A stretch of 56,193 nt of DNA from Halorubrum halophilum (GTDB lineage Archaea > Halobacteriota > Halobacteria > Halobacteriales > Haloferacaceae), in contig NZ_BBJP01000092.1 in NCBI RefSeq assembly GCF_000739595.1, positions 1 through 56,193 on the forward strand, written 5' to 3'. The notes under the pieces were generated by a model, which saw only the letters and a list, made by a program, of their open reading frames with translations, was not told where the DNA came from and ran no database searches. Both the position numbers and the translations under genes were made by a program. Positions 1,384 through 56,193 of the stretch are shown here, one piece after another (within the stretch, counting starts at the first letter, position 1; every line of letters starts with the position of its first letter).

Positions 1384-1814
1384 CGAGAGTGAGTATTGCA
1401 GATCGGTGGCAGTGATGGAGTATTTAAATAACCGTGAACGTCAGCAGCAGTTCCTTATAAATGCGGTGCGGTGGCGCGCCCCGGTGAGCGGCCGCCATCG
1501 GCGGCCGCGAACTGCCGGTGCGAGGGAGTCGCTGGCGGCGGGAGCCGCCAGCGACGAGGCTGGGGAGGCGTGAGGCTGCGGTTGCGGTTGCGGTGCGGGC
1601 GGGGTGGGACTCAAAGTGGCAGCCGCTGCGGGCGGCGCAGGCGACGTAAGCACCGCAGCGAGCAACGCGAGCGAGGAGCACAGCGAGCGTGCGCCGCCCG
1701 CAGCGGCTGGGGCTTTGGACGTGTTCACCGCCGTACCCTTATAAACAGCCGACGGCAACACCACTCGATAGGTTATAAACAACCGTTTCACCAATTCGCT
1801 ATCCCTACTCCCGA
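1384..1814 (+). repeat. Dispersed structured repeat, copy A (long form)
   Basis: This gene-free stretch between two convergent genes holds a complete copy of the window's repeat family, in the orientation I call forward. An imperfect terminal inverted repeat starts near 1384 (..GAGTATTGCAGATCGGTGG) and ends near 1814 (..CCTACTCCCG). TATA-like boxes TATTTAAATA (1421-1430) and TTATAAA (1456-1462) precede the core. The core can pair end to end (GCGGTG 1468-1473 with CACCGC 1726-1731) and contains a 9-bp hairpin (1488-1508), a perfect 12-bp hairpin with GGGA loop (1528-1555) and a perfect 20-bp stem (1620-1639 with 1690-1709). No protein is likely from it. Confidence 0.85.
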
Positions 1815-10156: not shown

Positions 10157-11352
10157 GCGACGACGGCAGCGGCGGGACGGCGAGCGACCGTGGGGCCGCC
10201 GGCTGGCTCCGCGGCTGGCGCCCCGCGGTCGCGATGGCCGCGCGGAACCTCCGGCGGAACCGCGTCCGGACGGTCCTCGCGGTGCTCGGCGTCTGCATCG
10301 GCGTGCTGGCGGTCGCGGCGCTCGGGATCTTCGGGAACGTGCTCGCGCTCGGCGCCGACGACGCCATCGGCGACATCGGCACGCAGGTGGTCGTGTCGCC
10401 GAACGCGGACGCCGGCGTGGAGTCGCTATCGGCGGCCGACGTGGCGGCGATCCGACGCGCCGTCGACGACCCGGCGGTCGGGGACCCGGCCGTCGTCCCG
10501 CTGTACTCCGACAACGCGATCGTCGAAGGCGCGAGCGGACAGACGTTCGCGACGATATACGGCGTCGAGGAGCCCGGGCTCGCGTTCGAGGCCGCAGAGG
10601 GCAGGCTCCCGGACCGCCACAGGCAAGGCGCAATCGTCGGGTCGGGAATCGCTGAGGACCTCAGCGTGGGCGCGGGCGACACCGTCGGGATCGCGGGCTC
10701 GCAGGTCCGCGTCGTCGCCGTGCTCGCCGAGAGCCAGACGTTCAGCCCGGTTGCGCCCGACGATGCCGTCTTCCTCCCGGAGTCGGCGTTCGCCGCCGAC
10801 GGCTACGCGCAGGCGCTGGTCGTCGCTGAGTCGGGTGAGACGGCGCGAGCCGCCGCGGACGCGATCCGCGAGGACGTGAACGCCCGCGAGGAGCGCGTCG
10901 ACCTGTTCGAACTGGCGGCGATCGTCGACGAGATCAACGACTTCTTCGATCTCCTGAGCACGTTCCTGCTCGGGCTCGGCGCCATCTCGCTCGTGGTCGC
11001 CGGTGTCTCGATCCTCAACGTCATGCTGATGAGCACCGTCGAGCGCCGACAGGAGATCGGCGTGATGCGCGCGGTCGGCGTGACCCGCCGGGACGTGTTG
11101 CGCGTGCTGCTCGCGGAGGCCGGGCTCATCGGCGCGGCGGGCGCGGCGGCGGGGACCCTGCTGACCGTGCTGCTCGTCGCCGGGCTCGTGGCCGCGACGC
11201 CCGCGGTCGACGCCGCGCTCGTGCTCGATCCGACGAACGGCTACTACCTCCTGTTGGCGCTCGGGTTCGGCGTCGGCGTCGGGATCGTCAGCGGGGCGTA
11301 CCCCGCGTGGAAGGCGGCGAACGAGCGCCCCGTGGAGGCGCTTCGGAGCTGA
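10153..11352 (+). CDS. ABC transporter permease, MacB/FtsX type
   Basis: A 399-residue permease with one N-terminal membrane helix (about 36-58, VLAVLGVCIGVLAVAALGIF), a large extracytoplasmic MacB_PCD-like domain (60-265), and three C-terminal helices in the FtsX domain (about 275-300, 325-355 and 362-385), including the conserved segment VERRQEIGVMRAVGV. It works with the ATPase just upstream (ATGA overlap). In archaea such systems probably extract or move lipid-anchored or secreted molecules at the cell surface; the substrate here is unknown. Confidence 0.92.
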   Translation: MSDDGSGGTASDRGAAGWLRGWRPAVAMAARNLRRNRVRTVLAVLGVCIGVLAVAALGIFGNVLALGADDAIGDIGTQVVVSPNADAGVESLSAADVAAIRRAVDDPAVGDPAVVPLYSDNAIVEGASGQTFATIYGVEEPGLAFEAAEGRLPDRHRQGAIVGSGIAEDLSVGAGDTVGIAGSQVRVVAVLAESQTFSPVAPDDAVFLPESAFAADGYAQALVVAESGETARAAADAIREDVNAREERVDLFELAAIVDEINDFFDLLSTFLLGLGAISLVVAGVSILNVMLMSTVERRQEIGVMRAVGVTRRDVLRVLLAEAGLIGAAGAAAGTLLTVLLVAGLVAATPAVDAALVLDPTNGYYLLLALGFGVGVGIVSGAYPAWKAANERPVEALRS

Positions 11353-13532: not shown

Positions 13533-13822
13533 CTTATAAATGGCTGATACTGGATCGGCGGTAAACAACTTCAAAGCCCCAGCCGCGAGGACGGCGCACA
13601 CTCGTTGTGCTCCTCGCTCGTTCGCTCCGCTCACTCGCTGCGGTGCTTACGTCGTCTGCGCCGCCCTCGCGGCTGCCCCTTTGAGCCCCACCCCGCACCG
13701 CACCTCACGCCTCCCCAGCCTCGTCGCTGGCGGCTGTCGCCGCCAGCGACTCCCTCGCGCGGCGCTCCTCGCGCCCGTTGGGCGCTCGGAGGCGCGCGCC
13801 AACCGCAGATCGGTTTATAAAT
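13533..13822 (-). repeat. Dispersed structured repeat, copy B (short form)
   Basis: A core copy in reverse orientation, bounded on both sides by TTATAAA (13534-13540 and 13814-13820), without the outer terminal inverted repeats seen in copies A, C and E. The long stem pairs 13580-13598 with 13657-13675 (one G-U pair) and the 12-bp hairpin with core GTCGCTGGCGGC is intact at about 13723-13750. It sits between thyA and tRNA-Gly. The rest of 13376-13532 and 13823-13903 shows no gene. Confidence 0.85.
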
Positions 13823-21472: not shown

Positions 21473-21556
21473 GCGGCGTCTGTGGGTGTATCGGATTCTT
21501 CGCGCCGACTCGATCCGCTTCGGTCTGCCGTCCGTCTGGGAATTGCGATGAGTGAT

Positions 21557-21997
21557 AGCGGGAGTAGGTATAGCAAATTGGTGAAACGGTTGTTTATAAG
21601 CGATCGAGTGGCGTCGTTGTCGGCCGTTTATATGAGATCGGCGCGTCTGCGGTGAACATTTTCAAAGCCCCAGCCGCTGAGGACGGCGCACGCTCGCTGC
21701 GCTCCTCGCTCGCGTTGCTCGCTGTGGTGCTTACGTCGCCTGCGCCGCCCTCAGCGGCTGCCCCTTTGAACCCCACCCCGCACCGCAACCACACAATACC
21801 TCACGCCTCCCCAGCCTCGTCGGGCGCCCTCCGCGTTGCTCCGGACGCCCGACTCCCTCGCACCGGCGGTTCGCGGCCCTCCGGGCCGCTCACCGGTGCG
21901 CGCCACCGCGGTAGACTTTTATAAGATATCGTCGCCATCGCTCATACCCTTTTAAATACTCTCTCGCCGCCACCGATCTGCAACACCTACTCCCGCT
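21557..21997 (-). repeat. Dispersed structured repeat, copy C (long form)
   Basis: This gene-free stretch between two convergent genes is a complete long copy in reverse orientation. Terminal inverted repeats are clear: AGCGGGAGTAGGTATAGCA at 21557-21575 and the complement of AGCGGGAGTAGGTGTTGCA at 21979-21997. Stem positions 21671-21690 pair with 21741-21760 (one G-U). The middle hairpin differs from A, B and E: GTCGGGCG pairs with CGCCCGAC, so pairing is kept with a new sequence. No direct target repeat is evident beside the ends. Confidence 0.88.
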
Positions 21998-22072
21998 CTC
22001 GACCGAGAGATAATCGCTTAGCGACCGTCGTTTCAGACAAAAACACTTCTGAGCGGGATCCGAGGACCCTGG

Positions 22073-22402
22073 TCAGTTATACCCTCTCCACCGGTGCCCG
22101 CACTCCTTGCATTTAAAGAACCGCGTCGGAGGCTCGTCGGCGGCGCCGGTCTGTTTGATCGTGTACCACGCCTCGCCGTGGCCGCACTCGTCGCAGACGA
22201 TGTCGTTGGCGGTCGGTTTTCCCTCGAAGTTCGCGCCCTCCTCGGTCTCGATCACCTCGTCGCCGGTCTGTTCGGTCGTCGACTCGAACTCGGCCGCGAG
22301 CCCCTCGTCGCGCTCGGCGGTGCCGCCGCAGTCGTCGTTCTGACACACCATCTCTCCGTCGCGAGAGACCATCATCGAGCCGCAGTCGTCACAGAACTGC
22401 AT
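22073..22402 (-). CDS. tfs: Transcription factor S (RNA cleavage factor, TFIIS/RPB9-like)
   Basis: Induces cleavage of backtracked transcripts by archaeal RNA polymerase. The 109-residue protein has an N-terminal zinc ribbon (Cys4, Cys7, Cys20, Cys25), an acidic linker, and a C-terminal ribbon with CDECG...KCKECG. The loop GAADEPPTRF carries the Asp-Glu pair that reaches the polymerase active site, so it is expected to be active. Length is typical. A TATA-like CTAAACC lies near -27. Confidence 0.94.
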   Translation of the reverse strand: MQFCDDCGSMMVSRDGEMVCQNDDCGGTAERDEGLAAEFESTTEQTGDEVIETEEGANFEGKPTANDIVCDECGHGEAWYTIKQTGAADEPPTRFFKCKECGHRWRGYN

Positions 22403-28580: not shown

Positions 28581-28876
28581 TTTATAAACGGCTGCGGTGG
28601 CGCGCCGCCGAGCGGTCGCCATCGGCGACCGCGAGGAGCCCGCGAGGGACGCGGTGAGCGCTCGAAGAGCGCGAACCGCGAGGCTGGGGAGGTGTGAGGC
28701 TGCGGTTTGCGGTGCGGGGCGGGACTCAAAGGGGAGCCGGGAGAACGGCGCAGGCGACGCAAGCACTGGAAGGAGCGAACGAAGTGAGCGACTGAAGCGC
28801 GCAGCGAGCGTGCGCCGTTCTCCCGGCTGGGGCTTTGGCGGTGTTCGCAGTTGATCCGTCAGCAACCATTTATAAA
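28581..28876 (+). repeat. Dispersed structured repeat, copy D (short form, most divergent)
   Basis: The 456-bp gap between pan and pdaD holds a forward core copy bounded by TTTATAAA at 28581-28588 and at 28869-28876, with no outer terminal inverted repeats. Stem sequences differ from the other copies but remain paired: 28735-28752 with 28811-28828 is an 18-bp perfect stem, and the closing pair is CTGCG (28592-28596) with CGCAG (28846-28850) in place of GCGGTG/CACCGC. The motifs GGCTGGGGAGG, GGGACTCAAAGGGG and GGGGCTTTGG are retained. Confidence 0.85.
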
Positions 28877-31486: not shown

Positions 31487-31985
31487 TACGGGAGTGGGTA
31501 TATCGATACGGTAGAGTGGTTGTTTATAAGTGATCGAGTGGTGTTGCTGTCGGCTGTTTATAAGTGATTGATGGTAAATCGGCGGTGAACACCTCTAAAG
31601 CCCCAGCCGACGAGGCGGGCGCACGCTCGCTGCGCTCCTCACTCGCTCGCTAGCGCTCCCTCGTTGCGGTGCTTACGTCGTCATCAGAACGCTTTGCGTT
31701 CTGATTGGCTCACGAGAGTTCCGCTCTCGTGAACGCCTGCGCCCGCCTCGTCGGCTGCCCCTTTGAGTCCCACCCGCCCACAATCGCACCGCACCTCACG
31801 CCTCCCCAGCCTCGTCGCTGGCGGCTGTCGCCGCCAGCGACTCCCTCGCGCGGCGCTGTTCGCGCCCTTCGGGCGCTCACAGGCGCGCGCCGACCGCCTC
31901 ATTGATTTATAAGCGATCGTTGCGGTCGCTTATGGCTATATAAATACTGAATCGTCATCACCGATCTGCAACACTTACTCCCGCT
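31487..31985 (-). repeat. Dispersed structured repeat, copy E (long form with extra hairpins)
   Basis: This copy fills most of the 802-bp gene-free stretch before dnaG, in reverse orientation. Ends: CGGGAGTGGGTAT near 31489 and the complement of AGCGGGAGTAAGT ending at 31985. The long stem is a perfect 20 bp (31604-31623 with 31738-31757). Its tip contains an insertion absent from other copies: two perfect hairpins, ATCAGAACGC/GCGTTCTGAT (31683-31705) and CACGAGAG/CTCTCGTG (31711-31731). The remaining flanks, 31339-31486 and 31986-32107, show no gene. Confidence 0.87.
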
Positions 31986-32107
31986 ATCTATCGAGACACG
32001 GCCACCAACGAACAGCTGTTTCATGCCGCCTCCTGTCTGTTGAGTGGGATTTCGACGAAGCGGTCCGCGGAGAAGCGCGTTCGAGTCCGAGACGCCTCGC
32101 GCCGTCG

Positions 32108-56009: not shown

Positions 56010-56193
56010 AGCGGGAGTAGGTGTTGCAGTTCGGTGGTGGCGATCCAGTATTTAAATAATCGTGAGCGCTAGCGACGATCACTTATAATGAACGATGCGG
56101 TCGGCGCGCCCCGGTGAGCGGCCGCCATCGGCGGCCGCGAACCGCCGGTGCGAGGGAGTCGCTGGCGGCGGTAGTACGTGAGAGATGTTTTGG
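56010..56193 (+). repeat. Dispersed structured repeat, copy F (interrupted at window edge)
   Basis: A forward copy with a clear terminal repeat AGCGGGAGTAGGTGTTGCAG at 56010, TATTTAAATA at 56049-56058, TTATAA at 56083 and the first hairpin (about 56118-56138). Similarity to copy A stops in the 5' arm of the second hairpin, after 56171; the final 22 bases (GTAGTACGTGAGAG..) are unrelated to the family. The copy is either broken by an insertion or deletion, or cut by a rearrangement. Confidence 0.8.

Follow-up and report, generated by a model that had tools for sequence, protein, structure and literature searches.

An intergenic hairpin unit of Halorubrum with shared sites, variable contents and variable orientation

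The window analysed here is a whole contig of Halorubrum halophilum, 56,193 nucleotides in length. It carries at 22073-22402 a gene for transcription factor S (TFS; Pfam TFIIS zinc ribbon), whose closest relatives are found in Halorubrum species with up to 100% identity, and beside it a repeat at 21557-21997, hereafter copy C. The first-pass annotation had described copy C as flanked by imperfect terminal inverted repeats (TIRs), free of any transposase and without a clear target-site duplication, and had proposed a MITE-like carrier for it. A pattern search of the window locates both TIRs without a mismatch and, with up to three mismatches allowed, finds four TIR sites against 0.07 expected, a number reached in none of 100 shuffles of the window; the further two sites lie at 31967-31985 (reverse strand) and 56010-56028 (forward strand). 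No open reading frame of at least 100 amino acids lies wholly within 21557-21997, and a search for a target-site duplication at the inner TIRs gave none that is convincing; the three descriptive statements are thus borne out. The features of the window are listed below, those of copy C first.

21557-21575, forward strand: left TIR of copy C, AGCGGGAGTAGGTATAGCA (pattern hit, 0 mismatches)
21558-21640, forward strand: arm A of copy C (nhmmer model A, 68.9 bits)
21651-21776, forward strand: hairpin H1 of copy C (nhmmer model H1, 101 bits; stems covary across copies)
21798-21908, forward strand: hairpin H2 of copy C (nhmmer model H2, 74.6 bits; stems covary across copies)
21918-21996, reverse strand: arm B of copy C (nhmmer model B, 71.2 bits)
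21979-21997, reverse strand: right TIR of copy C, AGCGGGAGTAGGTGTTGCA (pattern hit, 0 mismatches)
22018-22053, reverse strand: decayed X end of the IS5-type outer layer of copy C (nhmmer model X, 16.5 bits)
1384-1813, reverse strand: complete unit in the order B-H2-H1-A (profile models)
31489-31985, forward strand: complete unit in the order A-H1-H2-B (profile models)
31990-32061, reverse strand: X end beside the unit at 31489-31985 (nhmmer model X, 36.2 bits), with GGCTCTGTTGA-like termini on both sides
56010-56193, reverse strand: unit cut by the contig end, with arm B and part of H2 (TIR pattern and models)
13560-13801, forward strand: core-only copy, H1-H2 (models); site empty in L065 and L066, filled in L064
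28595-28847, reverse strand: core-only copy, H1-H2 (models); counterparts at the same site in L065, L066, L070, L073 and L075, site empty in L064 and L068

Copy C is one member of a family of non-coding units of about 440 bp, which lie between genes and, according to profile models built from the copies, have a fixed order of TIR, arm A, hairpin H1, hairpin H2, arm B and TIR. We distinguish 73 units, at least 49 in this genome and 24 from relatives; the BLAST copy count for this genome, with 40 of 210 candidates scored, is a lower bound. The profile models (X, Y, A, B, H1 and H2) derive from the very loci to which they were applied. The inner end is longer than the first-pass annotation had it, with a conserved (T)GAT(C/T)GATAGCGGGAGT, and across the genome there are 26+26 TIR sites against 3+3 for a reversed-pattern control (up to two mismatches). 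By our reading of the site list, all convergent TIR pairs in the genome are about 210-500 bp apart and none spans an interval the size of a transposase gene. The contig ends inside the unit at 56010-56193, as if the repeat had broken the assembly. The gene context of 53 copies is convergent in 27, tandem in 23 and divergent in three, as assigned by a GC3 heuristic that is wrong for at least one copy of the window.

The stems of the two hairpins differ strongly in sequence among copies while their pairing is kept. For H2, 84% of the cells are paired over 111 copies against a shuffled mean of 65% (highest of 500 shuffles, 69%), and for H1, 74% over 104 copies against 50% (highest of 500 shuffles, 55%). 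The hairpins look like REP-type chromosomal repeats with maintained pairing; a search of 21540-22010 with the Rfam covariance models returned nothing at E-values up to 1. At the site orthologous to the core-only copy at 28595-28847, the stems are quite different between genomes and still pair, and core-only copies can evidently persist. In L070 and L075, sequence seems to have been deleted between repeated CCCCAGCC motifs. Both arms also contain TTTATAA / TATTTAAA motifs (for example, at 21590-21640 and 21920-21960), which we take to resemble archaeal TATA boxes.

The H2 box occurs 10-194 times per genome in all 52 genomes of the genus (controls 0-6; up to two mismatches) and, with up to one mismatch, across the order in 83 of 293 genomes, which represent 25 of 87 genera. 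In other haloarchaeal families its distribution is patchy, with up to 95 boxes per genome, for example in genus g35 of family f17. Among annotated plasmids the core is found in four records (E-values up to 1e-3), the Y end in 32 and an IS5 transposase in 183, so the core is largely chromosomal; phage records gave no match to the unit.

Two further segments, X and Y, recur outside the TIRs, and their ends start with GGCTCTGTTGAAA. Termini of this kind are present 70-80 nt outside the TIR on 54 of 146 sides as compared with 4 of 403 control windows, and X or Y accompanies 31 of the 49 own units and 13 of the 24 units of relatives on at least one side. Both outer ends could be identified in 14 units, always as one X and one Y; X stands beside arm A (or Y beside arm B) in 24 of 44 cases and the reverse holds in the other 20. 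The 8-mers immediately outside the outer ends of 12 units agree in 4.08 of 8 letters on average, against 2.42 when shuffled (one of 5000 shuffles as high), and the duplications are eroded in old copies, with four or fewer letters alike in seven of the 12 units. The outer repeat of own L024 is, by our reading, seemingly longer, at about 13 nt. At copy C the outer layer has decayed, Y being undetected; the X terminus abuts the stop codon of TFS, and its position is unchanged in H. salipaludis (L066) and H. salsamenti (L070).

The outer ends match those of IS5-family insertion sequences of the ISHla2/ISHxa2 type, which have an 8-bp target duplication. An intact IS5-family transposase gene of this genome lies about 50 nt inside a Y-like end, the left ends of ISHxa2/ISHla2-type plasmid elements are Y-like, and L216 contains a 1238-bp IS5-type element with a Y-like end, a full X right end and an exact duplication of the 8-mer GCTTGCCT. 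The terminus GGCTCTGTTGAAA had seemed to us reminiscent of IS26, and the IS6 family was considered as carrier on that account; it was rejected, the three IS6 copies of this genome having the TIR GTGTTCAGATAAG.

Elements with X and Y ends also occur without the hairpin unit. Five loci of this genome (L141, L142, L144, L145 and L147) are, by our reading, transposase-free X-Y elements with exact 8-bp duplications, and the cargo genes of such elements include HTH proteins, membrane proteins and a possible PIN-like pair. The element at 2049-2901 of L343 (G036), 853 bp long and likewise lacking the unit, is located beside the gene that flanks the unit in own L007, and the 119-bp L146 is an X-Y element without linker. 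At own L003 (C45, about position 10685) the outer terminus GGCTCTGTT is present four times head to tail, in an insertion that is empty in eight of eight relatives. A search for an X-Y junction from before insertion, with the unit cleanly missing, found none. An IS5-type transposase of the ISHla2 type is the likely agent of seeding, and IS5-type non-autonomous elements probably founded the sites, although 18 of the 49 own units have neither X nor Y on either side and lend this no support.

The first-pass annotation had proposed comparing empty and filled sites between relatives, and this comparison confirms empty sites. We compared 11 further sites of this genome with relatives in 87 rows; the sites were picked for coding flanks, L022 and L030 also for their lack of X/Y, and orientation played no part in the choice. 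Thirty-nine rows are empty, 23 are filled and were kept, 24 are partial or undecidable, and one was dropped, namely L292 at own L006, a false hit that had been retrieved for a different site; L292 was also excluded from the rank test described below. The site of copy C is clean and empty in L060, L064, L072 and L088, where the two convergent genes lie close together.

Orientation varies at the filled sites. Relative to this genome, the unit has the same orientation in 12 of the 23 filled rows and the opposite orientation in 11, and among the 16 rows with both flanks aligned it is the same in seven and opposite in nine. An opposite unit is present at all six sites that have a two-flank row (L006, L021, L022, L024, L025 and L030); at each of the other two filled sites, L012 and L016, there is a single partner with one aligned flank, and its orientation is the same. 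At the site of copy C the unit is opposite in L066 and the same in L070, and orientations are mixed as well at a site compared in G036, G018 and G027. At L006 and L024, the flanks including the X/Y remnants match up to the TIR on both sides with the unit reversed, so the frame there looks inherited. The case for these two sites rests on the printed flanks and not on the mean identity of the outer 70 nt, a measure that allows free gaps and is high between unrelated flanks too (0.77 for non-orthologous and 0.80 for orthologous pairs). At L030, both junctions are common to six genomes (this genome, L252, L256, L260, L264 and L265) and the unit inside differs.

The contents of the units do not follow their positions. 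In 22 pairs the median rank of the positional counterpart is 58.5 of 94, no closer than that of random copies, and at four sites arm identity is 0.80 between orthologous sites and 0.80 at random. Near-identical units are found instead at different sites of one genome, sites that other species share: L252 (site L030) and L070 (site of copy C) agree at 98.2% over 435 nt, and in G015 the unit L291 at site L006 agrees with L307 at site L021 at 93.5% over 324 nt. Neither pair remains alike beyond the TIR, the flanks being unrelated. The own units L021 and L025 share a near-identical tract that starts inside the TIR and ends near arm B. Two further pairs were left out: L268/L338, in which L268 has one aligned flank only, as a shared-site case, and own L026/L158, which is 95% alike over part of the unit and 77% over the whole of it. 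Loss of positional kinship is partly expected, because intergenic sequence diverges fast, but orientation and the within-genome copies are free of this weakness. Inversion in place as the sole event was rejected, since the contents of the units differ too.

At the level of sequence, the comparison of genomes thus reveals shared sites, variable contents, variable orientation and copying bounded by the TIRs. Based on the opposite orientation in nine of 16 two-flank rows, the lack of positional kinship and, in two genomes, the near-identical units at two sites that are alike only as far as the TIR, we conclude that the TIRs are the joints at which the cassette is exchanged and inverted. The proposal of a MITE-like carrier is accordingly upheld for a discrete, repeated, transposase-free unit bounded by TIRs with empty orthologous sites; the transposon-type ends, however, are not AGCGGGAG but X and Y, 70-80 nt outside, and the unit, being exchanged and inverted at sites already occupied, is more than a simple MITE. 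The same annotation had held that junctions conserved at syntenic sites irrespective of the core would speak against such a carrier, and this is what is seen at some sites, such as L030 with its six genomes.

We hypothesize, with somewhat better than even confidence, a layered non-autonomous element that combines IS5-type seeding, a TIR-bounded cassette and turnover by host recombination. Seeding, which is supported though not for every copy, would occur by insertion of a transposase-free element with the X and Y ends of an ISHla2/ISHxa2-type insertion sequence, on which an IS5-family transposase would act in trans and leave an 8-bp duplication. Inside X and Y lies the cassette, with the TIR GATCGATAGCGGGAGT at its ends and the order arm A-H1-H2-arm B. 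The pattern at sites already occupied is one of units replaced by copies from elsewhere in the genome, in either orientation and with breakpoints at the TIR. We infer host recombination as the agent of this turnover. Most likely, gene conversion copies a unit from site to site, which accounts for the overwriting but would leave orientation as it was, and the flips come from recombination between the two inverted TIRs. Against this route, the TIR, at about 25 nt, is a short substrate for homologous recombination.

An unlikely competitor is an ordinary MITE with a hot spot, in which units of different species insert afresh and independently, in either orientation, at one favoured position near gene ends through an unseen transposase recognising AGCGGGAG. 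Such insertion would account for unrelated units in random orientation at one site, for the empty sites in relatives and for the TIRs themselves, and it is a rival where the outer frame has decayed. At L006 and L024, however, the match of flanks and outer X/Y remnants up to the TIR speaks for an inherited frame, the inner TIR lacks a target duplication, and a pattern search of this whole genome for an insertion sequence with AGCGGGAG ends, as the first-pass annotation had suggested, matched none. A dedicated site-specific recombinase that both exchanges and inverts the cassettes at the TIR, comparable to those of integrons or of phase-variable inversions, would explain both overwriting and flips, and the exact TIR boundaries of the copied units and the near-equal orientations agree with it; yet no repeat-linked candidate gene was found in this genome among the Pfam families IS240, DDE_Tnp_1 and Y1, and we regard this account as rather unlikely. 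The most far-reaching reading seems to us rather unlikely too: a haloarchaeal cassette-exchange system in which a trans-acting recombinase at GATCGATAGCGGGAGT ends would continually shuffle and invert hairpin cassettes among dozens of fixed intergenic docking sites, possibly altering the ends or the transcription of neighbouring genes. An artefact of assemblers turning units round at inverted repeats is very improbable, for although the repeat is high-copy and most genomes are drafts, the TIR is only about 25 nt long, the units differ in content as well as in orientation, and the genome G016, in three contigs, has the opposite unit at site L022.

MITEs, PATEs and SMRs have been described in Haloquadratum, and SMR-A is the closest known system to the layered element favoured here (PMC3119063). 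Both SMR-A and the unit are bounded by TIRs, lack a transposase and a target duplication, reside inside other mobile elements and have a TIR unrelated to known transposons, the latter having been checked for the unit in this genome. SMR-A is about 110 bp long and inserts into near-terminal palindromes of PATEs or IS605-type elements (PMC3119063), whereas the unit is about 440 bp long with two hairpins, has an IS5-type X/Y frame in 44 of 73 cases and is swapped in place. PATEs are likewise palindromic and transposase-free but are described there without TIRs, which the unit has (PMC3119063). A survey of REP sequences, from which the term 'halo' is absent, indicates that REP, BIME and REPIN elements resemble the unit as abundant, intergenic, palindromic and mostly chromosomal repeats, the unit being much longer and having TIR arms (PMC12306157). 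In PMC11078007, no word begins with 'repeat' or 'mite'. A RAYT/Y1 transposase beside the hairpins is unsupported, as none of the three Y1 loci of this genome has a module within 1.5 kb.

ISHla2/ISHxa2-type IS5 elements and their derived MITEs have the GGCTCTGTTGAAA outer ends and the 8-bp duplication in common with the frame of the unit, which unlike the insertion sequences has no transposase and carries as cargo a hairpin unit with its own TIRs. Compared with what defines a MITE, TIRs are found at both inner and outer ends and empty sites in the comparison with relatives; autonomous elements with common ends exist for the outer ends, in the IS5 family, and none does in this genome for the inner TIR, and the target duplication is 8 bp and eroded outside and absent inside. 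The BOX elements of pneumococci are, like the unit, modular non-autonomous repeats, and we know of no in-place flipping or swapping among them. A literature search recognised no paper describing the repeat in Halorubrum, although most subscription journals lay outside its scope and a description may be in print.

Prokaryotic repeats are usually treated either as mobile, inserting and decaying, or as fixed, inherited in place in the manner of REP. The family of units described here combines fixed sites with mobile contents, its positions being inherited across species while the unit at each is overwritten and turned round. An IS5-type transposase can be named as likely behind the seeding of the sites. 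If this is confirmed, the family would allow ectopic recombination and concerted evolution in archaea to be assayed by counting natural cases, and its named sites would be the places to look for a recombinase.
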